From: Pseudomonas mucidolens
Lineage (GTDB): Bacteria; Pseudomonadota; Gammaproteobacteria; Pseudomonadales; Pseudomonadaceae
Reading direction: 5' to 3'
NCBI RefSeq assembly: GCF_900106045.1
Contig: NZ_LT629802.1
Coordinates: 4,464,001 to 4,528,000 of the forward strand
Length of the DNA: 64,000 nucleotides
Every line of letters starts with the position of its first letter. The first letter of the stretch is position 1. This document shows, in pieces, positions 4,244 through 13,931 of the stretch. The position numbers were made by a program, and so were the translations under genes. Below the pieces are notes generated by a model that worked only from the letters and a program-made list of their open reading frames with translations, made no database searches and was not told where the DNA came from.

Positions 4244-5478
4244 TGAAACGTGTGGTCGTCACCGGCATGGCCGGCGTCACGTCCCTGGGCAGCGACTGGG
4301 AGAGCATCGTCGCCAATTTTCGCGCTAACCGTAGCGGCATTCGACGCATGGATGAATGGGACCGGTTCAGCGAGTTGAATACACGACTGGCCGGGCCTAT
4401 CGATGATTTCGTGGTGCCGGCCCACTGGACCCGCAAACAACTGCGCAGCATGGGCCGAGTGTCCCGGCTGGCGGTGTGGGCGGCGGAACAGGCGTTACAG
4501 AACGCGGGCCTGCTGGGTGACGAGTCGATCAAGGACGGACGCATGGGCGTCGCGTGCGGCTCGTCCACCGGCAGCACCGACGAGATCAAAGCCTTCGGCA
4601 ACATGCTGCTCAATTCCGTGGCCGAGGGGCTGAACGCTAACTCCTACGTGCGGATGATGCCCCACACTACGGCGGCCAATATCAGTATTTTCTTCGGTCT
4701 CACCGGACGCCTGATACCTACTTCCAGCGCGTGCACCAGCGGCAGCCAGGGCATCGGCTACGCCTACGAAGCCATCAAGTTCGGCCGGCTGCCGTTGATG
4801 CTCGCCGGCGGCGCTGAAGAGCTGTGTCCGACTGAAGCCATGGTGTTCGACGCACTCTACGCCACCAGCCTGAAAAACGACGCGCCGCAAACCAGCCCGC
4901 GTCCCTACGACAACAGCCGCGACGGGCTGGTGATCGGTGAAGGCGGCGGCATGCTGGTGCTCGAAGAGCTGGAACACGCCCTGGCGCGCGGCGCGCATAT
5001 CCACGCCGAGATCGTCGGTTTTGGCAGCAACGCCGACGGCCAGCACACCACGCGCCCCGAACAGACCACCATGCGCCGGGCGATGGAGCTGGCCCTGGAA
5101 GACGCCAATCTGCAACCGGCGGCCATCGGTTATGTGAACGGGCATGGCACCGCCACCGAACAGGGCGACATCGCCGAAACCCTGGCCACCCACAGCTTGT
5201 TCGGCAGCCGCATGCCCATCAGTTCGCAGAAAAGTTTCCTCGGCCATACCCTGGGCGCCTGCGGCGCGCTGGAGTCATGGTTCAGCATCGAAATGATGAA
5301 CCGCGATCAATACGTGCCGACCTTCAACCTGGATCACGTCGACCCGCGCTGTGGCGAACTGGACTACCTGCAACGCGAGTTTCGCCAGATGCACAACGAT
5401 TACGTGATGAATAACAATTTTGCCTTCGGCGGCGTCAACACTTCGCTGATCTTTCGCCGCTGGCAGCAAGCCTTTTAA
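4243..5478 (+). CDS. Second beta-ketoacyl-ACP synthase (FabF-like, ApeR-like)
   Basis: A 411-residue FabF-type ketosynthase. Active-site Cys lies in TSSACTSGSQ, the two His residues in NGHGTATEQGD and SFLGHTLGACG; the C-terminal NNNFAFGGVNTSLIF closes the fold. The first ATG after the ketoreductase stop (TGATG at 4241-4245) is taken as start because the protein then begins MKRVVVTGMAG like its family. Two different active ketosynthases in one aryl-polyene locus usually divide priming and extension; which does which cannot be told here. It is the last of the seven overlapping genes. Confidence 0.87.
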   Translation: MKRVVVTGMAGVTSLGSDWESIVANFRANRSGIRRMDEWDRFSELNTRLAGPIDDFVVPAHWTRKQLRSMGRVSRLAVWAAEQALQNAGLLGDESIKDGRMGVACGSSTGSTDEIKAFGNMLLNSVAEGLNANSYVRMMPHTTAANISIFFGLTGRLIPTSSACTSGSQGIGYAYEAIKFGRLPLMLAGGAEELCPTEAMVFDALYATSLKNDAPQTSPRPYDNSRDGLVIGEGGGMLVLEELEHALARGAHIHAEIVGFGSNADGQHTTRPEQTTMRRAMELALEDANLQPAAIGYVNGHGTATEQGDIAETLATHSLFGSRMPISSQKSFLGHTLGACGALESWFSIEMMNRDQYVPTFNLDHVDPRCGELDYLQREFRQMHNDYVMNNNFAFGGVNTSLIFRRWQQAF

Positions 5479-5495: not shown

Positions 5496-5945
5496 ATGTC
5501 TTCCTTGCTACGCGCTACCCTGGTGGTCCTGACCCTGCTGATCGTTGCCGGCTGCACCAGCAAACCAGTGCTCAACACCCAGCACGCGCTGACGGCCAAT
5601 GAGCAGGTCAGTGCAGCGAAAATGAAACAGAGCATCCTCGCCGCCCTGGATAAACGCCAGTGGACCGTGCAACGCGCCGACCCAGGCCTGATCCAGGCCG
5701 AAATCACCGTGCGCAACCGCTACCACGCCGAAATCGACATCCGTTACACCGGCAGCAACTACGCCATCACCTACCGCGACAGCCGCGACCTGGGCTACAA
5801 AAACGGCAAGATTCATCGCAACTACAACCGCTGGGTGAGCATGCTCGATCGCGACATCCTCGCCGGCTTGCGCGCCAACGGCGTGAGCGAGGCGGGCTCG
5901 GCGGCGCAGCTGTTCAAGGAAACCGGGACTTCGAAGCAGAATTGA
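5496..5945 (+). CDS. Small lipoprotein at the end of the pigment cluster
   Basis: A 149-residue predicted lipoprotein: signal peptide MSSLLRATLVVLTLLIVAGC with the Cys at residue 20 followed by TSKP. The mature part has a compact alpha/beta pattern (ILAALDKRQWTVQ, IQAEITVRNRYHAEIDI, YKNGKIHRNYNRWV) resembling small periplasmic lipoproteins with a BON/YajI-like fold, but I do not recognise a named family. A good ribosome site, GGAG, stands 9 bases before the ATG. It follows the ketosynthase by 17 bases and is probably co-transcribed with it. It marks the right boundary of the GC-rich cluster; composition changes sharply after it. Confidence 0.7.
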   Translation: MSSLLRATLVVLTLLIVAGCTSKPVLNTQHALTANEQVSAAKMKQSILAALDKRQWTVQRADPGLIQAEITVRNRYHAEIDIRYTGSNYAITYRDSRDLGYKNGKIHRNYNRWVSMLDRDILAGLRANGVSEAGSAAQLFKETGTSKQN

Positions 5946-6163
5946 AACACCAGAAACGACAAGGGCGCCGCTCGGCGACCTCTTCACAAGCAGGCTGACG
6001 TGTCATCGTCTTCGTCCTGCCTGGCTCTGCAATGGCTGATTCCGCATGCCAAAAAAACGAGTTTGCCATATCGCCCTCCTGGCAAGACATGAAATAAGGG
6101 AAGTTGGAGCGGATCATTTCAGAAACATCCCACAGCGAGATCTTTAATCTTCGCGGTAGGGTC

Positions 6164-6190
6164 AATATCCCAGCGACATGTCGGGATATT
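6164..6190 (+). promoter_or_regulatory. Perfect 8-bp inverted repeat just before the queC ribosome site
   Basis: AATATCCC (6164-6171) and GGGATATT (6183-6190) are exact complements around an 11-base loop that itself contains the palindrome GACATGTC. The hairpin ends only 2 bases before CAGGGA, the likely ribosome-binding sequence of queC, so in the mRNA it could control access of ribosomes; on DNA it could be an operator for the neighbouring XRE regulator. It does not show the conserved core of preQ1 riboswitches that I know. The symmetry is directly visible; any function is inferred. Confidence 0.45.
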
Positions 6191-6205
6191 CCAGGGATGA
6201 AAAAG

Positions 6206-6901
6206 ATGAATAGAAAAGCAGTCATCGTTTTTAGTGGTGGACAAGACTCAACAACCTGCTTAATCCATGCTTTGCCGATCTATGATGAAATACACTGCAT
6301 TACGTTTGACTATGGACAGCGTCATCGCGCAGAAATTGAAATTTCGCAACAACTCTCAAAAAAGCTTGGAGTGGCGGTTCATAAAGTACTGGATGTCTCG
6401 TTACTCAACGCGTTAGCCAGCAGTAGCTTAACCCGTGACCACATACCCGCTCCAAGTATAAGTAGCTCGACAGAAAGCCTGCCAGACACTTTCGTACCAG
6501 GCAGAAACATTCTATTTTTAACCTTGGCTGCTATTTATGCCTATCAGGTCCGCGCTGAAACTGTAATCACGGGTGTTTGTGAAACGGATTTCTCTGGCTA
6601 TCCGGATTACAGGGATGAATTTGTCAAGACACTGAACAACGCCATCGAATTGGGCATGGACTATAAGCTACACATTGAAACCCCGCTGATGTGGCTGAAT
6701 AAGGCAGAGACCTGGGCCTTGGCCGATCACCATAACAAACTGGATTTGATCCGCGAGCACACCTTGTCTTGCTATAACGGAATAAAGGGAAACGGGTGCG
6801 CTAATTGCGATGCCTGTAATCTTCGTGCAAAAGGATTGAAGACGTTCATGGAAAACAGAACACAAATCGGTTTAAGTCTAAAAACAAAATTAACGTTATA
6901 A
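6206..6901 (+). CDS. queC: 7-cyano-7-deazaguanine (preQ0) synthase, enterobacterial type
   Basis: A 231-residue PP-loop ATPase that converts 7-carboxy-7-deazaguanine to preQ0 with ATP and ammonia in the queuosine pathway. The PP-loop is FSGGQDSTT near residue 8-16; [22 protein letters not shown] and [12 protein letters not shown] are QueC signatures; four zinc Cys occur in [16 protein letters not shown]. Length and wording match the E. coli-type QueC closely, unlike the form usual in Pseudomonas. The ATG at 6206 is preferred over TTG 6104 or ATG 6197 because CAGGGA precedes it at the right distance. The gene is AT-rich against its surroundings and has no queD, queE or tgt beside it, so it looks acquired. 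Its 3' end runs into a terminator shared with the convergent transporter gene. Confidence 0.92.
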
Positions 6902-6956
6902 AAACAACTCACGGCATGGCAAAGAAACTACTGACAGCCCGCCTCATCCACGTTCT

Positions 6957-6989
6957 CATAGCCGATCAGGGACCGGCTATGTATTTTTT
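6957..6989 (+). terminator. Rho-independent terminator after queC, overlapping the convergent gene
   Basis: CATAGCCG (6957-6964) pairs with CGGCTATG (6974-6981) across a 9-base loop and is followed by a run of six T at 6984-6989 on the plus strand. It should end the queC transcript. Its right half lies inside the last codons and stop of the minus-strand transporter gene, so the two transcripts overlap at their 3' ends. On the minus strand no T-run follows the hairpin. Confidence 0.8.
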
Positions 6990-7835
6990 AAACAACGACC
7001 TTGCTCCGTAGGCGGGCAAGATATTAAATACAGCAAAACACAATTTTATGGCTATCTGCAGATAGACTATATTAAGTATATCGTCATTCGGCATAGCCCC
7101 ATAAAACGCCACAAAACAAAAAATAAAGCTATCTATTATCACCGCAAAAAAAGTACTGAAAAAAACTCGTAAAAACAGAAATCTGGAGCTCGTAAGTTCT
7201 TTTATCTTACACAGCAGATAGGAATTAACATATTCGGAGAACAGAAAAGATATGGAAGACGCAACCAATACCGACGAAACATGACCAATAACCTCACCAT
7301 AGTGCACATCCAACTTCCAACCGGGCAATCCTGGAAGGTAGCTGGTGACACTTAGCAACGCGATGATAAAAGCGTTACTTGCAAAAGCAAAAAAGATAGC
7401 CTTTCTTGCAAGTCTAAGGCCGTAAGACTCATTCAACAAATCAACTATTAAAAATGTTAGCGGATATAAAAATACGCCCGGAGTAACCACAACATCAAAT
7501 CGCTCCACATAAACGAGTTTTGTGGCCGCAACGTTCGTGAAGATATAAAGCGCAAACAACAACAGATTGAGAGCTACGTAAGTCATCCAGGACCGTTCAT
7601 TACGATCATTTAATTCGTATGCGGTTAATGCAGCACCACCGGAATAAAACTTCCTATATACGTCCTTTATTTCTCCCTTATTTAAATTATCCAACACTTC
7701 ACTTTTCAACAGATCGCCCAGTTTCAACTTAATAATTCTTCCTGTCGAAATCACCATAATGACAGCACGACCTTTAGCGTTTTCAAACCCTAACAGTTTA
7801 TATCTACTGTTTTCAACCTCACTGTCTCCAACCAT
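6966..7835 (-). CDS. VUT/YhhQ-family queuosine-precursor transporter with N-terminal extra domain
   Basis: A 289-residue protein. Residues about 75-285 hold six hydrophobic segments and the YhhQ hallmarks DLLNESYGLRLARK, SEYVNSYLLCKI, IDSFIFCFVAFYG and NILPAYGA; YhhQ of E. coli imports preQ0/preQ1. The first ~72 residues (SRYKLLGFENAKG to GGAALTAYELNDRNE) form a soluble, unrecognised beta-rich domain not present in E. coli YhhQ (about 221 residues). The ATG at 7835 is chosen because GGAGGAG precedes it by 7 bases; it overlaps the regulator gene by 17 bases, so the two are coupled. AT-rich. With queC convergent beside it, uptake of a deazaguanine precursor is the natural inference; export is not excluded. 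Confidence 0.8.
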   Translation of the reverse strand: MVGDSEVENSRYKLLGFENAKGRAVIMVISTGRIIKLKLGDLLKSEVLDNLNKGEIKDVYRKFYSGGAALTAYELNDRNERSWMTYVALNLLLFALYIFTNVAATKLVYVERFDVVVTPGVFLYPLTFLIVDLLNESYGLRLARKAIFFAFASNAFIIALLSVTSYLPGLPGWKLDVHYGEVIGHVSSVLVASSISFLFSEYVNSYLLCKIKELTSSRFLFLRVFFSTFFAVIIDSFIFCFVAFYGAMPNDDILNIVYLQIAIKLCFAVFNILPAYGARSLFKKYIAGP

Positions 7836-8421
7836 TAAACCTCTCCTCCAATATGTCCCCGACAACACATATGACATCATCACAACTAGGCCCGTTGGTG
7901 ACAGATAGTTTTTTTGTGACTTTATCGTATACCAACTTTTCTTTATCGCTATTCAAAATACCTTTCTTGACAATTAATAGATCACCCGGTCCATTCACTC
8001 CACCGACGTCGCTCTCTAGCAGCACACCGATGACGTTGCTGGCGGAACCAAAATAATAAGTAAGAGGATAAATCGTAGCCAGCTCACCGATTCGCTTGTC
8101 CAAGCTCTGAATCAACAAACTTTCTCTGATTATAGGAACCGCTGCCGGATTCATATTTCCAAGTAAAGAAACACTACTCTCAATTGTTTCCTTTTCCTCA
8201 AAATCAACGGTCTCTATTTCCCGGTAAGACACACCAAAAAAATCAGAAATCTTGCGAATCGTAGATTGCTGAACATTCACCACCCGCCCTTCCAAAATGT
8301 TATATATCGTGGTCCGGGTCAGTCCGCTTGCAATGCATAAAGACAGCTGCGTCTCTCCACGGCTTTTTATCAAATACTTAATATTATTCTTCAAGTTCTC
8401 TGTTTTTTCTTTCTTGTACAT
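7819..8421 (-). CDS. XRE-family regulator with S24-like C-terminal domain
   Basis: A 200-residue putative DNA-binding protein. Residues about 12-65 form a Cro/CI helix-turn-helix (LSLCIASGLTRTTIYNILEG, then IRKISDFFGVSY). Residues about 105-195 look like the S24/LexA dimerisation fold: NVIGVLLESDVGG, GDLLIVKKG and VICVVGDILEE. The Ser of the usual self-cleavage motif is not in place, so it is probably not a latent protease but a ligand- or partner-sensing fold. It is the first gene of a two-gene operon with the transporter, overlapping it, and probably autoregulates. Low GC as the rest of the patch. The HTH is sure; the S24 assignment is moderate. Confidence 0.75.
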   Translation of the reverse strand: MYKKEKTENLKNNIKYLIKSRGETQLSLCIASGLTRTTIYNILEGRVVNVQQSTIRKISDFFGVSYREIETVDFEEKETIESSVSLLGNMNPAAVPIIRESLLIQSLDKRIGELATIYPLTYYFGSASNVIGVLLESDVGGVNGPGDLLIVKKGILNSDKEKLVYDKVTKKLSVTNGPSCDDVICVVGDILEERFNGWRQ

Positions 8422-8814
8422 TAAATATTAACCATTCACTTATCGCTTTAGCCATCTGCGCGCTTCAAATGAGACCACAAAGGGATCCCTTTATGATATC
8501 AGCATCCTACAAATGCAGCATATTGTACAAAAATCAATACCACGAACTCGACACTCAATCGTTAAACACTATTTTGCCCCCCCCTTGACCGACCACTCAG
8601 GAACTATATCCCACAATGTTTAACGAAACTTCCTACAGCAACTCACGTAGAAGGTTATTGCAAAACCAATTAAGCCGTGAATGAATCATTTAATTACAGA
8701 TATGTTCATTTATTTGATTAATAAAATTGAATTTTCTGGTAATAAATCCACGAGCGGTCAGTCACGTACCGCCAAGGGACCGGCACCTACTTAGACCTTG
8801 CAAGGAAATTCAGC
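8422..8814. other. AT-rich intergenic region between divergent regulator and DUF6124 genes
   Basis: About 390 bases without a convincing gene. It must hold the promoters of the minus-strand regulator/transporter operon and of the plus-strand DUF6124 gene. A run of eight C (8577-8584) followed by TTGACC, and a strongly AT-rich tract at about 8690-8750 containing TTGATT and TAATAAAT, are the only notable strings; the latter could be promoter elements for the DUF6124 gene, but spacing is not decisive. The short hairpin GCGGT/ACCGC lies near 8754-8772. Otherwise nothing was recognised. Confidence 0.4.
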
Positions 8815-9114
8815 ATGAAAAAGACCAATCAAAACACCCCGGAAACACCAGACCGCCCCGACCCGGTCAGCCCCTTTTTCACCATCGTCCCGAATGCCGA
8901 CACCACATCCCTGCTCTGTCACGCCTGCGAAACCCTTGCCTCGCTGAATGTAATGACCACCGATCTGGCCAGCGAATTGGAAGGCTCACGCCGCAATGTG
9001 GCGCTGGCAATTCAGCAACTGGCCGTGCTGGGTGAGTTATTGGTAAATCGCGCACTAGACAACCTGGAGCCGCCCGTAGGGTTGCCTGCAGCTCCGTCGA
9101 ACAACCAACGCTGA
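8815..9114 (+). CDS. DUF6124-family small protein
   Basis: A 99-residue soluble protein with the wording of the Pseudomonas DUF6124 family: a Pro-rich start, then FFTIVPNADTTSLLCHACE, then SLNVMTTDLASELEGSRRN and an amphipathic helix AIQQLAVLGELLVNRAL. No signal peptide or membrane segment. AAGGA 8 bases before the ATG supports the start. Members are common single-copy or multicopy genes in Pseudomonas; no function is established that I know. Composition returns towards normal GC here. It may be unrelated to both the AT-rich module on its left and the pyocin-like gene on its right. Confidence 0.7.
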   Translation: MKKTNQNTPETPDRPDPVSPFFTIVPNADTTSLLCHACETLASLNVMTTDLASELEGSRRNVALAIQQLAVLGELLVNRALDNLEPPVGLPAAPSNNQR

Positions 9115-9370
9115 TGAGTAGTCGCGTTTTGTGAACAGTTGGAGGTTTCTTGTCAGGAATCGACACCCGCGACATCCGGGCGCAGTGGAAGCAGTACCGC
9201 AGGCAAAACCGGACCAATGTCCTTTTCCCGCCGTAGCAACACCACGAAATAGGAAATTTCAGCGCCATATTAGGGAAACATCCTAACGCCAGCACCTGAG
9301 CAGCCAGGATAAGTTCGATCCTCCCACCCGTCACACGCTGGGTATCCCCAAGGACGAATAAGAAACGCTG

Positions 9371-10291
9371 ATGAAAAAGCTCGGTTTCCCGGACACCCCG
9401 GACTTTTTGCCTATCCCCGAAGAACCGCCCGCCAAGGCGCAGCAACAAGCCTTCCAGGAGCCTCGTACGGCGGTAGCCGCCATTAATCCAAAGAATGAAA
9501 TGGACACCGACGCACGCGGGGGAAAGAACCCAGGATTTGTGCACAACAAAAAATCCGCTACGCAGCTTGAAGGTTGCGTGTTCGCCAAGAGTTGCAACCT
9601 ACCTGACGGGGTCATCAATCACAGCAACCCGAGCGGTTTTGTCCCGCTCGAGAAGCTGACCAATTACGGGGTGTGGGCCGTGCTGGGTACTGACGCAGCC
9701 ATCACGACCGACGGCATCCCCCTGAAACTGCTGGGATGTTCGACCACGGAGGGTGTCATTGCCCAACGTCTCGGCGGGTCCCTTGCACTCGGTCTGCTAT
9801 CAGGCTCAACGGCAGCTGACGCTGCGGTCGGGACTGTGGCGCTGCTGATGCCGAACGCGCAAATTGCTCCCGACAGTGCCCTCTACAAAAAAGACCAATA
9901 TGCACAGCTGGATGCTGGACGAACCCGTGTGCGCATCAACGTGAAGACCTTGCCCGACGGCTCCGTCAGCGCTTACGGCTTCTACACCGGCGGAAAACAA
10001 GACTGGGAGTTTGTCCCGGTGATCAAAGCCACTCAAGAGGACGAGAAGTTTGTCGCCGAGATTGGCAATGGCATTCGCCTGATCTGGACGCCTGCGGCGA
10101 GTCCCGCGGACCCGCCGGGTATTCCGGCACTCGAAGGCACCTCGCTTCAGCCGACGATATGGGTTTATCCGTCCACCGAACAAGCGGAAAAGGTCCTGAT
10201 GAACCCGGAGCATCCGCCGCAGTATCAGGACGCGATTATCTGGTTCCCATCGGATGCGGGACTTGAGCCGATCTACATCGCGCTCAATTAG
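9371..10291 (+). CDS. S-type pyocin-domain protein lacking a toxin domain
   Basis: A 306-residue protein. After about 60 polar, Pro-rich residues it follows the bacteriocin translocation/pyocin_S region: EGCVFAKSCNLPDGVINH, GLLSGSTAADAAVGTVALLM, RTRVRINVKTLPDGSVSAYG, and near the end HPPQYQDAIIWFPSDAGLEP. In complete S-type pyocins the last motif, ending PIY(I/V), is followed at once by the nuclease or other killing domain; here the protein stops two or three residues later (YIALN, then TAG). No receptor-binding module is recognised upstream and no immunity gene follows. It is therefore either a remnant of a pyocin or a stand-alone carrier protein. An in-frame stop at 9359 limits the start to the ATG at 9371, which has only a distant AAGGA. 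Confidence 0.75.
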   Translation: MKKLGFPDTPDFLPIPEEPPAKAQQQAFQEPRTAVAAINPKNEMDTDARGGKNPGFVHNKKSATQLEGCVFAKSCNLPDGVINHSNPSGFVPLEKLTNYGVWAVLGTDAAITTDGIPLKLLGCSTTEGVIAQRLGGSLALGLLSGSTAADAAVGTVALLMPNAQIAPDSALYKKDQYAQLDAGRTRVRINVKTLPDGSVSAYGFYTGGKQDWEFVPVIKATQEDEKFVAEIGNGIRLIWTPAASPADPPGIPALEGTSLQPTIWVYPSTEQAEKVLMNPEHPPQYQDAIIWFPSDAGLEPIYIALN

Positions 10292-10395
10292 GCTTTGATC
10301 CCGGTAGGATTACGGGAGCGGGCCAGGCTGTGTCGGGGATTTGGAATGCCCGGATTCGCCGGTACGGGACCTGACCAGCACCTGGGAGAAGTGTC

Positions 10396-11277
10396 CTATG
10401 GCGTCAGCAGCTCGACAAACGCCTTGGCCATGGGCGATGGCTGGCCTTTGCGCTGCACCAGCCACACCGCCGTCACCGCCTCCTGATCGAGCAACGTTCG
10501 GTAGACCACGCCATCGATGCGGATACGCTGGTACGAGGCTGGCAGCACTGAAACCCCCAGCCCGGCGGCCACCAGGCCGATGATGGTCATCGCCTCTGCG
10601 GCCTCCTGCGCGAAATGCGGGTTGAAGCCGGCCTCGCGGGCCAGGGTCAGCAGTTGGGCGTACAAACCGCTGCCGTAGGTGCGCGGGAAGAACACGAAAG
10701 GCTCTTCGGCCAACTGCGCCAGATGCAAACCGCGCTCGCTGCCTTCCACCAGCGGATGACCGGCACTCAGCACCGCGACCAGAGGCTCACGCATCAGTTC
10801 CACGACACTCAACGAATCAGGCAACGGCAGCGGACGCATCAACCCGACCTGGATCGACTCATCCACCAGCGCCTGCGCCACTTCGGTGCTGCTCATTTCC
10901 CGCAGGCTCAGGTGCACCGCTGGAAAGGCCTGGCGAAAGGCAAAAATCGCCTGTGGAATGCTGGCGTTGAACGGTGCCGAAGAGGTGAAGCCGATTTTCA
11001 ACTCACCGAGTTCGCCCAATTGCGCCCGGCGGGCCACGTCCGCGGCTTTGTCCATCTGCGCCAATACCAGGCGCGCTTCATGCAGGAACAATCGGCCGGC
11101 TTCGCTCAGTTCGACCCGACGATTGGTACGCTCGAACAAGCGCGCGCCCACCTGCTGCTCCAACGCCTGAATCTGCTGGCTCAACGGCGGTTGCGAGATG
11201 CCCAACACCTGGGCGGCGCGGCCGAAGTGCAACTCTTCGGCCACGGCGATGAAGTAGCGCAGATGGCGCAATTCCAT
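10396..11277 (-). CDS. LysR-family transcriptional regulator
   Basis: A 293-residue LysR regulator. The winged HTH is at residues about 1-60 (HFGRAAQVLGISQPPLSQQI, RLFERTNRRVELSEAG), followed by the periplasmic-binding-like effector domain (GELKIGFTSSAPFN to LGVSVLPASYQRI). The wording is like the BenM/CatM-type branch of small-aromatic or acid-responsive regulators, but the effector is unknown. It is divergent from an MFS transporter gene with 124 bases between them, the usual arrangement when the regulator controls the transporter and itself. Confidence 0.9.
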   Translation of the reverse strand: MELRHLRYFIAVAEELHFGRAAQVLGISQPPLSQQIQALEQQVGARLFERTNRRVELSEAGRLFLHEARLVLAQMDKAADVARRAQLGELGELKIGFTSSAPFNASIPQAIFAFRQAFPAVHLSLREMSSTEVAQALVDESIQVGLMRPLPLPDSLSVVELMREPLVAVLSAGHPLVEGSERGLHLAQLAEEPFVFFPRTYGSGLYAQLLTLAREAGFNPHFAQEAAEAMTIIGLVAAGLGVSVLPASYQRIRIDGVVYRTLLDQEAVTAVWLVQRKGQPSPMAKAFVELLTP

Positions 11278-11401
11278 GAAAACCTCATTAGGTCGTAAAA
11301 GCTATCAAACAGGTCGAACAATATATTGGAAAGAATCATTAGCCAGCTATATTCTTTTTCCCATTGCCAGTCTTGGCTGCTTTTCCTCCCCGAGGTCCCG
11401 C
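11278..11401. promoter_or_regulatory. Divergent promoter/operator region, LysR regulator and MFS gene
   Basis: The 124-base gap is AT-rich relative to its flanks and contains the palindrome AATATATT at about 11318-11325 and TATATTC near 11347. LysR proteins bind imperfect dyads with a T-N11-A core in such positions. The exact operator and start sites cannot be fixed by eye. Confidence 0.4.
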
Positions 11402-12670
11402 GTGAAAGTTGCTGTCGCCACACTTGCCCAAGACCCCCCGCCCACAGCCCTGGATGAGGTCGTCGCGCAGCTTGAAGATGCCTATATCGAAAAAGGCACG
11501 CCGCTGTTCATGCGCACGGTGCTGGCGCTGTTCGCCGGCGGTTTTGCCACGTTTGCCCTGCTCTACTGCGTACAACCGATGATGCCGGTGCTGTCCCGGG
11601 AGTTCTCCATCAACGCGGCACAAAGCAGCCTGATCCTCTCGGTGTCCACCGCGATGCTTGCCTTTGGCCTGCTGATTACCGGGCCGGTTTCCGACCGTCT
11701 CGGGCGCAAGCCGGTGATGGTGGCGGCGCTGTTCTGCGCGGCCGCCAGCACCATCGCCAGCGGCCTGATGCCGACCTGGGAAGGGATTTTGTTAATGCGC
11801 GCGCTGGTGGGACTGTCCCTCAGTGGACTGGCTGCGGTCGCGATGACGTATCTGAGCGAAGAGATCCATCCGCAGCACCTCGGTCTGGCCATGGGCCTGT
11901 ACATCGCGGGTAATGCCATTGGCGGCATGAGCGGGCGCTTGATCATTGGCGTGCTGATCGACTTCGTCAGTTGGCACATCGCGATGCTGATCATCGGCGC
12001 CTTGGCACTGATCGCGGCAACGCTGTTCTGGAAACTCCTCCCCGAATCGCGCAACTTCCGCGCCAGCAGCCTCAAGCCGCGCAGCCTGGTGAATGGCTTT
12101 GTCATGCATTTCAAGGATGCGGGATTGCCGTGGTTGTTTCTCGAGGCCTTCTTGTTGATGGGCGCCTTCGTGACGCTGTTCAACTACATTGGCTATCGTT
12201 TGCTCGCCGATCCCTATGATCTGAGCCAGGCCGTGGTGGGCTTGCTTTCTGTGGTGTACCTCTCGGGCATCTACAGCTCGGCGAAGATCGGTGCCCTGGC
12301 TGACCGCCTGGGTCGGCGTCGCGTGTTGTGGGCCACTATCGTGCTGATGCTCGCCGGGATCGCACTGACGCTCTTCACCCCGCTGTGGCTGGTGTTCCTC
12401 GGCATGCTGATGTTCACTTTCGGCTTCTTCGGCGCCCACTCGGTAGCCAGCAGCTGGATTGGGCGCCGGGCGCGCAAAGCGCGGGGCCAGGCCTCGTCGT
12501 TGTACCTGTTCAGCTACTACGCGGGCTCCAGCATTGCCGGTACGGCAGGCGGGTTCTTCTGGCATTACGCGGGATGGAACGGGATTGGCGGGTTTATCGT
12601 CGCACTGCTGCTGGTGGCATTGCTGGTGGCGCTGAAGCTGGCGAAGTTGCCGCCGCTCAAGCACGCCTGA
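11402..12670 (+). CDS. MFS transporter, YnfM-like
   Basis: A 422-residue inner-membrane major-facilitator protein with about 12 hydrophobic segments. The loop 2-3 signature appears as GPVSDRLGRKP and its second-half equivalent as GALADRLGRRR. The N-terminal cytoplasmic tail (DEVVAQLEDAYIEKG) and overall length resemble E. coli YnfM. The GTG at 11402, preceded by GAGG, is taken as start; the frame extends further upstream but that part reads as non-coding promoter sequence. Substrate unknown; efflux of a small molecule is the common role. Likely regulated by the divergent LysR protein. Confidence 0.85.
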   Translation: MKVAVATLAQDPPPTALDEVVAQLEDAYIEKGTPLFMRTVLALFAGGFATFALLYCVQPMMPVLSREFSINAAQSSLILSVSTAMLAFGLLITGPVSDRLGRKPVMVAALFCAAASTIASGLMPTWEGILLMRALVGLSLSGLAAVAMTYLSEEIHPQHLGLAMGLYIAGNAIGGMSGRLIIGVLIDFVSWHIAMLIIGALALIAATLFWKLLPESRNFRASSLKPRSLVNGFVMHFKDAGLPWLFLEAFLLMGAFVTLFNYIGYRLLADPYDLSQAVVGLLSVVYLSGIYSSAKIGALADRLGRRRVLWATIVLMLAGIALTLFTPLWLVFLGMLMFTFGFFGAHSVASSWIGRRARKARGQASSLYLFSYYAGSSIAGTAGGFFWHYAGWNGIGGFIVALLLVALLVALKLAKLPPLKHA

Positions 12671-12707
12671 TAACCCCAAGTAATATAGCAAGGCGCACAC
12701 CGCTCCC

Positions 12708-12807
12708 TGTAGGAGCGAGCTCGCTCGCGAAGAACTCAAAGGCACCGCGTTTATCCAGAATGCACGCGTTATCGTTGACGTTTTTCGCGAGCAAGCTCGC
12801 TCCTACA
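12708..12807. repeat. REP pair (REPIN) after the MFS gene
   Basis: Two inverted copies of the Pseudomonas REP, TGTAGGAGCGAG-CTCGCTCGCGAA at 12708-12731 and its complement at 12784-12807, separated by about 50 bases. Each copy is itself a palindrome. They lie between convergent genes (MFS and hemE) and may help terminate both transcripts or protect 3' ends. Confidence 0.85.
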
Positions 12808-12863
12808 AAAGCTTGGCTGAACGGTAATACGGGGTTCTTCGGGCATTTTTTATTGGGCCGCGA

Positions 12864-13931
12864 TCACTCGTGATACTGCGCTGACAGCTCATGCACCGCA
12901 CGCAGGAACGCGCCGGCATGTTCTGGGTCGACTTCCGGCGTGATGCCGTGGCCGAGGTTGAACACATGTCCGGTGCCCTTGCCGTAGCTGGCGAGGATGC
13001 GGCCGACTTCAGTGCGGATTGCCTCGGGCTTGGCGTACAGCACCGTTGGGTCCATGTTGCCTTGCAGGGCGACCTGGTTACCGACGCGACGGCGGGCTTC
13101 GCCGATATCACAGGTCCAGTCCAGGCCCAGGGCATCGGCGCCGGCATCAGCGATGCTTTCGAGCCACAGGCCGCCATTCTTGGTGAACAGAATCACCGGG
13201 ACCTTGCGGCCTTCGTGTTCGCGGATCAGGCCGCTGATGATTTTGCGCATATAAGCCAGGGAGAACTCCTGGTACGCCGCCGCCGACAGGTTGCCGCCCC
13301 AGGTATCGAAGATCTGCACCGCTTGCGCGCCGGCCATGATCTGGCCGTTGAGGTAAGAGATGACCGACTGCGCCAGTTTGTCCAGCAGCAGGTGCATGGC
13401 CTGCGGGTTGTCGTAGAGCATGGCCTTGGTCTTGCGGAAGTCTTTCGACGAGCCGCCTTCGACCATGTAGGTGGCCAGGGTCCACGGGCTGCCGGAGAAG
13501 CCGATCAGCGGTACGCGGCCGTTCAGTTCGCGGCGAATGGTGCTGACCGCGTCCATCACGTAACCCAGGTCCTTGTGGGGGTCGGGGATCGGCAGGGCTT
13601 CGATGTCGGCCAGGGTGCTGACGACTTTCTTGAAACGCGGACCTTCGCCGGTTTCGAAGTACAGGCCTTGGCCCATGGCATCCGGGATGGTCAGGATATC
13701 GGAGAAGAGAATCGCCGCGTCCAATTGTGGATAGCGATCCAGCGGCTGCATCGTGACTTCGCACGCAAACTCCGGGTTCATGCACAGGCTCATGAAATCA
13801 CCGGCGTGAGCGCGGCTGGCACGGTATTCCGGCAGGTAGCGACCGGCTTGACGCATCATCCACACGGGGGTGACGTCCACGGGTTGCTTGAGCAGGGCAC
13901 GAAGGAAACGGTCGTTCTTGAGGGCAGTCAT
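12864..13931 (-). CDS. hemE: Uroporphyrinogen decarboxylase
   Basis: A 355-residue cytoplasmic enzyme that removes four carboxyl groups from uroporphyrinogen III to give coproporphyrinogen III in haem synthesis. Both family signatures are present: [16 protein letters not shown] at about residues 23-38 and [17 protein letters not shown] near 140. Length is normal. The ATG start gives the usual [13 protein letters not shown]. Downstream lies the REP pair, upstream a strong hairpin, so it is probably a single-gene transcript. Confidence 0.97.

Follow-up and report, generated by a model that had tools for sequence, protein, structure and literature searches.

Three adjacent genes in a 64,000-nucleotide stretch of Pseudomonas mucidolens DNA (contig NZ_LT629802.1, positions 4,464,001 to 4,528,000; hereafter the window) encode an XRE repressor (xre), a queuosine-precursor transporter (vut) and a second 7-cyano-7-deazaguanine (preQ0) synthase (queC2), and together they probably form a mobile cassette that supplies queuosine (Q) precursors under the control of a repressor. 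The cassette recurs in other Pseudomonas genomes and on plasmids of other Gammaproteobacteria, and from the pattern of gene loss among its carriers QueC2 can apparently take over from the native QueC. The host genome is labelled G000, the window being G000:C1:4464001-4528000, and the other G and L numbers used below denote further genomes and loci. The parts of the cassette, in window coordinates, are as follows.

6206..6901, plus strand: queC2, predicted E. coli-type preQ0 synthase, 231 amino acids
6966..7835, minus strand: vut, predicted queuosine-precursor transporter (QPTR; COG1738, PF02592), 289 amino acids
7596..7835, minus strand: extra N-terminal region of Vut, about the first 80 residues, boundary approximate
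7819..8421, minus strand: xre, predicted XRE repressor resembling CI repressors, 200 amino acids, PF13443/PF01381
7819..7835, minus strand: overlap of the xre end with the vut start, 17 base pairs (bp) with the start at 7835

The original prediction, whose starting position 5946 is intergenic, described three genes poorer in GC than their flanks, a full-length QueC of the E. coli type, a YhhQ/VUT-type transporter with an added domain and a regulator gene overlapping that of the transporter, and all four descriptions hold. Three findings reported below go beyond that prediction: queF as another possible third gene, the position next to transfer operons, and carriers that have lost their own queC. 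The GC content of 6206-8421 is 0.415, compared with 0.614 in the flanks, and the cassette is below its flanks in all 70 loci measured (mean 0.484 versus 0.587; smallest gap 0.022). QueC2 matches PF06508 with an E value of 1.4e-77 and scores 404.7 bits with the E. coli-type model NF008317/PRK11106, for which the cut-off is 378. Vut matches PF02592 (E 2.5e-35) and is above the cut-off of TIGR00697; with the YhhQ-specific model NF008406 it scores 32.7 bits, under the cut-off of 252. The longest open reading frame of vut is 6966-7883 on the minus strand, and the database copy of 289 residues is consistent with a start at M17 (7835). The extra N-terminal region is kept with the cassette, plasmid copies included, and residues 11-60 were modelled as three strands and helices with a predicted local distance difference test score (pLDDT) of 74-81 for the block; the Vut model as a whole has a mean pLDDT of 58, and its fold search gave no significant match. 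The XRE protein contains the helix-turn-helix (HTH) domain of a CI-like XRE repressor and its model has a mean pLDDT of 81; the VIA fold list for this protein was filled by HTH domains and barely probed the C-terminal part. In 88 of 90 loci the end of xre and the start of vut share 1 to 32 bp, and the two genes are probably translationally coupled.

Linkage was examined in loci obtained by scanning genome contigs for the transporter, 80 of the 98 relatives found being used (79 from Pseudomonas and one from a Gammaproteobacteria bacterium). The xre and vut genes occur jointly in 80 of 80 loci, and a convergent queC2 lies no more than 400 bp away in 70; two of the other ten, L067 and L075, are near a contig edge. 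Among 199 Pseudomonas genomes, vut and queC2 are both present in 35, vut only in 4, queC2 only in 11 and neither in 149 (Fisher 7e-25), where matches with E below 1e-100 were counted and vut fragments in G037, G046 and G176 were left out. The surroundings vary: some loci, like the window, have a ketoacyl synthase and DUF6124, some have serine hydroxymethyltransferase (SHMT) with cytochrome-oxidase genes, some combine SHMT with an RF-1-domain gene and MFS, and further arrangements occur. The earlier suggestion that the three genes form a unit is thus supported by their convergent order, by their co-occurrence and by the same cassette on plasmids. Within this set L012 has two queC2 copies (4624-5307 and 8968-9651) a few kilobases (kb) apart, and P0214 and P0215, like this pair, come from contigs of equal size; in L020 a haemagglutinin-repeat/TPS-domain protein (9144-13637) takes the place of queC2 beside vut. 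The SHMT gene (PF00464) adjoins the cassette, divergent from xre, in 44 of the 80 loci (among L004-L083) and in at least two chromosomal contexts, its product being 70-92% identical to that of L030 in eight others compared. It was considered as a fourth cassette gene and rejected, as neither the window nor the annotated plasmid regions examined have one named beside the cassette; it is as likely an old chromosomal neighbour.

The set was also predicted to have been acquired, and the evidence agrees. A native queC (queC1) is present at C1:495851, directly after queE, so the window gene is not the sole copy, and QueC1 is 40% identical to QueC2; the host further has one TGT match and one QueF match. 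In a tree of 31 sequences, QueC2 and the plasmid QueC proteins group with QueC of Enterobacterales, Aeromonas, Shewanella and Bacillus (100/100), apart from Pseudomonas QueC1, which groups with Acinetobacter (100/100). The tree does not resolve the branching order inside the QueC2 group and thus points to no particular donor. At the window site queC2, vut and xre are absent in nine of nine relatives, from each of which 10-11 kb was taken. In G017 and G004 a lipoprotein gene, lysR, an MFS gene and a URO-D gene are found close together at this site (G004 carries queC2 elsewhere in its genome), and the similarity of G017 to the window ends near 6041 and restarts at 10401. A wider scan for the transporter matched 79 of 369 genomes, host included, in a draw spread over many families in which Enterobacterales and Vibrio are maybe thinly sampled. 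All matches outside the host are at most 38% identical; most span the generic transporter domain only, and the longest covers residues 27-277 at 24% identity with an internal stop. A phage origin was rejected: phages gave two distant transporter matches (27.5 and 30.3%), and the viral contigs scanned gave one transporter match of 28% and zero XRE matches.

Replacement of the native gene is seen in the carriers, defined as genomes with a QueC at least 70% identical to QueC2, of which there are 46 among the 199. When all 46 were searched with QueC1, queC1 was intact in 35, absent in 10 (G004, G031, G040, G099, G122, G136, G158, G165, G168 and G188, where QueC1 found nothing better than queC2 itself, at 41-44%) and truncated in one (G186, cut down to residues 133-224). 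A search with QueC2 found a QueC in 197 of 199 genomes and in 194 of 194 high-quality ones; none of the 148 high-quality non-carriers is QueC-less, the matches shown there being about 38-48% identical. The difference in queC1 loss between carriers and non-carriers gives a Fisher value of 5e-8, uncorrected for kinship. All 11 genomes with a lost or truncated queC1 retain queE, and in the eight whose junction was read queE is followed by a short gap and tRNA-Lys(TTT), several of them keeping remnants of the last queC1 codons before the tRNA gene. A tree of 31 genomes divides the 11 into five groups, and by carrier frequency the chance of five losses all falling in carriers is about 7e-4. The converse is found in G151, where queC2 has an internal stop and queC1 is kept; the queC2 of G087 (L092) carries an internal deletion, and two QueC matches were counted in that genome. 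Because queC1 is lost or truncated in 11 of 46 carriers and no QueC-less genome is found among the 148 high-quality non-carriers, QueC2 very probably works and replaces QueC1. The integrative and conjugative elements (ICEs) Tn6879-Tn6881 are described as located 92 bp upstream of chromosomal queC in Pseudomonas (PMC10269577), and the tRNA-Lys gene beside queC1 may make queC1 easy to lose, with a tie to such ICEs conceivable. Besides QueC1 and QueC2, a third type of QueC, sharing 47-48% identity with QueC2, occurs in G060, G100, G173 and G181, all of which have another QueC as well; in G100 it is directly followed by a weak QueE-like match. G071, G122 and G136 have more weak QueC-like matches besides queC2 (30-38% identity, E 1.9e-21 to 4.7e-10).

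The three genes are under purifying selection, as the median dN/dS values are low (0.06-0.11): 0.062 for queC2 (385 pairs), 0.057 for vut (376) and 0.112 for xre (404), taken over pairs with dS of 0.1-1.0. The motifs SGGxDS, YxQxHxxE, VPxRN and Cx8CxxCxxC, which belong to the canonical QueC signature given in PMC13329287, were all found in 74 of 74 full-length QueC2 proteins, window copy included. The fifth motif, YPDC, is present in 118 of 120 listed proteins and in 74 of 75 locus copies; the window QueC2 alone has YPDY, and one protein has no match. The tyrosine Y131 of YPDC is essential in E. coli according to the same source. The host QueC1 (L002) itself departs from the published signature, with S for H in YxQxHxxE and a longer cysteine spacing.

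The cassette is also carried by plasmids. XRE homologues 33-51% identical to the window protein were found in 22 records of a plasmid collection (Serratia 12, Vibrio 5, Arsenophonus 4, Cedecea 1), and the surroundings were read in 15 of these. The third gene is queC in eight, queF in six and neither in one (Vibrio ED002). The queC of CP041128 is unannotated and was matched over residues 3-211 only; queF is annotated in four of six, and the other two are large Vibrio replicons where PF14819/PF14489 identified it, with one match short. The queF cassettes are those of Vibrio, Arsenophonus and one Serratia plasmid, and queF is in the same direction as vut whereas queC is convergent. The cassette heads a conjugation or pilus operon in six plasmid lineages, whose transfer or pilus systems are of at least four kinds. 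It lies before traA in five Serratia F-type plasmids (traM is annotated upstream in four), is divergent from traY-traA in JSRIV006, precedes an SLT-VirB3-VirB4 operon in pE36_3, is followed by an HTH gene and then type IV pilus genes in S. symbiotica, and is divergent from the virB2 operon in Arsenophonus paNv_CAN7 and from trb genes in Vibrio ED002. Two other Arsenophonus plasmids have remnants of a type IV secretion system and insertion-sequence genes. A rough probability of 1e-8 was obtained for this placement; it is post hoc, with four favourable gaps per plasmid chosen by the author and the lineages taken as independent. The Cedecea neteri plasmid (L115) has a frameshifted transporter gene and no operon-head placement, and no transfer genes were found among the four and two neighbours scanned in the two large Vibrio replicons. 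In MOB-suite typing the conjugative class comprises the five F-type plasmids and JSRIV006 and the mobilizable class the three Arsenophonus plasmids, while pE36_3, S. symbiotica, ED002 and Cedecea come out as non-mobilizable. Next to the L115 cassette are acpT, ketoacyl-synthase and FabG-type genes; this resembles the window, although the bacterium belongs to another taxonomic order.

We propose that XRE would repress its own operon in response to a Q precursor, that Vut would import such a precursor, as COG1738 is reported to do in E. coli (PMC5372724), and that the third gene would contribute synthesis, with QueC2 predicted to convert 7-carboxy-7-deazaguanine (CDG) to preQ0 and QueF to convert preQ0 to preQ1. 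Either enzyme would feed preQ1 synthesis and hence Q-tRNA, and a cassette entering a new host would ensure, through both import and synthesis, that Q precursors are available. In Pseudomonas it would have settled in several chromosomal sites, where QueC2 is redundant with queC1 next to queE or, in about five lineages, has replaced it. The endpoint shared by QueC and QueF, preQ1 and Q-tRNA, favours a supply function over a signal based on preQ0 alone.

Several points weigh against the supply cassette. Salvage would be an odd role for it in a host that has QueE, QueC1, QueF and TGT. The parts are separable, as queC2 is found without vut in 11 genomes, and the transporter gene is broken in L081 and L082 as well as in the Cedecea locus. 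The losses of queC1 were counted in related genomes, on a tree whose backbone support is 64-65 in places. The window QueC2 itself could be weakened, given its YPDY and the queC1 retained by its host. No conserved operator was found upstream of xre or queC2, and in no locus do the regions upstream of xre and queC2 have a palindromic half-site in common (arms of 5-6, spacer 0-12, 250 bp). Perfect 14-bp palindromes occur upstream of xre in 3 of 91 cases (window, L004 and L034), with differing sequences, compared with 62 of 4550 shuffles. Riboswitch control was considered and rejected, as Rfam matched none of nine loci at the gathering score and nothing in positions 5900-8900 of the window with E values up to 1.

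Supply alone leaves the plasmid placement unexplained, which is why a 7-deazaguanine signalling device was considered as a rival. Here XRE would sense preQ0 or preQ1, the transporter (perhaps through its N-terminal region) would gate or report the external pool, QueC or QueF would set the internal level, and the adjacent conjugation pilus operon would be the output on plasmids. The position at the head of transfer operons and the alternation of queC and queF, which are opposite for preQ0, speak for this device. On the other side, insertions and regulators are common at the heads of transfer operons anyway, Cedecea and the two large Vibrio replicons lack such placement (few Vibrio neighbours having been scanned), and pE36_3, S. 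symbiotica and ED002 are non-mobilizable by typing. Transfer genes were unrecognised near the Pseudomonas loci, where most neighbours lack annotation, and the operator search was empty. We consider the device unlikely, and also its boldest form, in which gammaproteobacterial plasmids use a 7-deazaguanine as a signal to control conjugation, XRE switching the adjacent pilus operon on information from the transporter and from the preQ0/preQ1 level that the plasmid's QueC or QueF sets, and Pseudomonas chromosomes have domesticated the module, its QueC replacing their own.

A regulator, a transporter and an enzyme duplicate are a usual layout of a spare-target module, in which an insensitive QueC2 or QueF duplicate and an exporter would protect against an antimetabolite hitting the Q pathway; the mobility of the cassette and the S-pyocin-domain gene in the same inserted segment would suit it. 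We know of no antimetabolite aimed at this pathway, the QueC motifs are unaltered except in the window copy, and replacement of the native queC suits housekeeping use, so that this explanation is improbable. A use in modifying DNA or proteins, whether as defence or against restriction and similar to Dpd, Qat or type IV CBASS, is very improbable, and the suggestion of DNA modification in the original prediction is unsupported. QueC-fold proteins do act in Qat and type IV CBASS (PMC13329287), and PADLOC gave a QueC match of 56.6 bits, but QueC2 is canonical in length and motifs, the window neighbours scanned contain no Qat (qatA/qatD) or CD-NTase families, G000, G165 and G099 have a single PF01702 match each (a divergent DpdA could escape), and the phage and viral-contig scans did not find the cassette. 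Chance neighbours with vertical inheritance would account for queC2 without vut in 11 of 199 genomes and vut without queC2 in 4; this reading is refuted by the linkage across chromosomal contexts and plasmids, and the empty site in relatives, the GC contrast in 70 of 70 loci and the QueC tree leave it scarcely any probability.

The cassette lies in a larger segment of the window, and the remaining features of that segment are given here.

6042..10400, no strand assigned: segment unmatched in relatives G017 and G004, approximate ends, comprising the cassette, the DUF6124 gene and the S-pyocin-domain gene
8815..9114, plus strand: DUF6124 gene, which often adjoins xre in the ketoacyl-synthase context and is outside the core cassette

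Pfam neighbours to the left of the cassette in the window are ketoacyl synthases and a short-chain dehydrogenase, and those to the right are DUF6124, the S-pyocin domain, LysR, MFS and URO-D. The S-pyocin-domain (PF06958) protein at 9371-10291 partly matches a type VI secretion system antibacterial DNase model, far under the cut-off.

A literature search covering titles, abstract openings and top-ranked matches returned no regulator-QPTR-queC/queF cassette and no Q-precursor genes at conjugation operons, and the cassette, its mobility and the replacement of queC1 appear new within the literature searched. The losses of queC1 resemble a complementation experiment that nature has carried out about five times, and their repetition in carriers suggests that preQ0 synthesis is kept under selection in Pseudomonas. 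The cassette offers a direct route to what plasmids gain from controlling Q precursors, and it allows one to ask if the precursor of a modified base can act as a bacterial signal.

Compared with canonical QueC (PF06508 cluster 1 of PMC13329287), QueC2 is alike in four of the five motifs, in length and in its match to the E. coli-type model; it differs in being a second copy, gained by horizontal transfer, whose gene converges on that of a transporter, and queD and queE, frequent neighbours according to that source, are missing beside it. The type IV CBASS protein Cap9 has a median length of about 185 residues in the same source, compared with 231 for QueC2. Vut resembles YhhQ/QPTR (COG1738) in its PF02592 and TIGR00697 matches and differs in its N-terminal region of about 80 residues, in the overlapping regulator gene and in its low score with the YhhQ-specific model; physical clustering of COG1738 with Q genes was already known (PMC5372724). 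The XRE protein is similar to the CI repressors of lambda and 186 in its HTH and beta-rich C-terminal part, and these were the first matches of a whole-length Foldseek search (7jvt, 3bdn; E 2e-7 to 9e-6), but the identity is 11-13%, the global superposition is poor (TM about 0.3) and no Pfam S24 domain is reported. Q-precursor genes on mobile DNA are likewise found as queCDE on Mesorhizobium symbiosis ICEs and Aeromonas islands (PMC8627217, PMC8667584); those are sets of queC, queD and queE, whereas the cassette described here combines a regulator, a transporter and a single enzyme.

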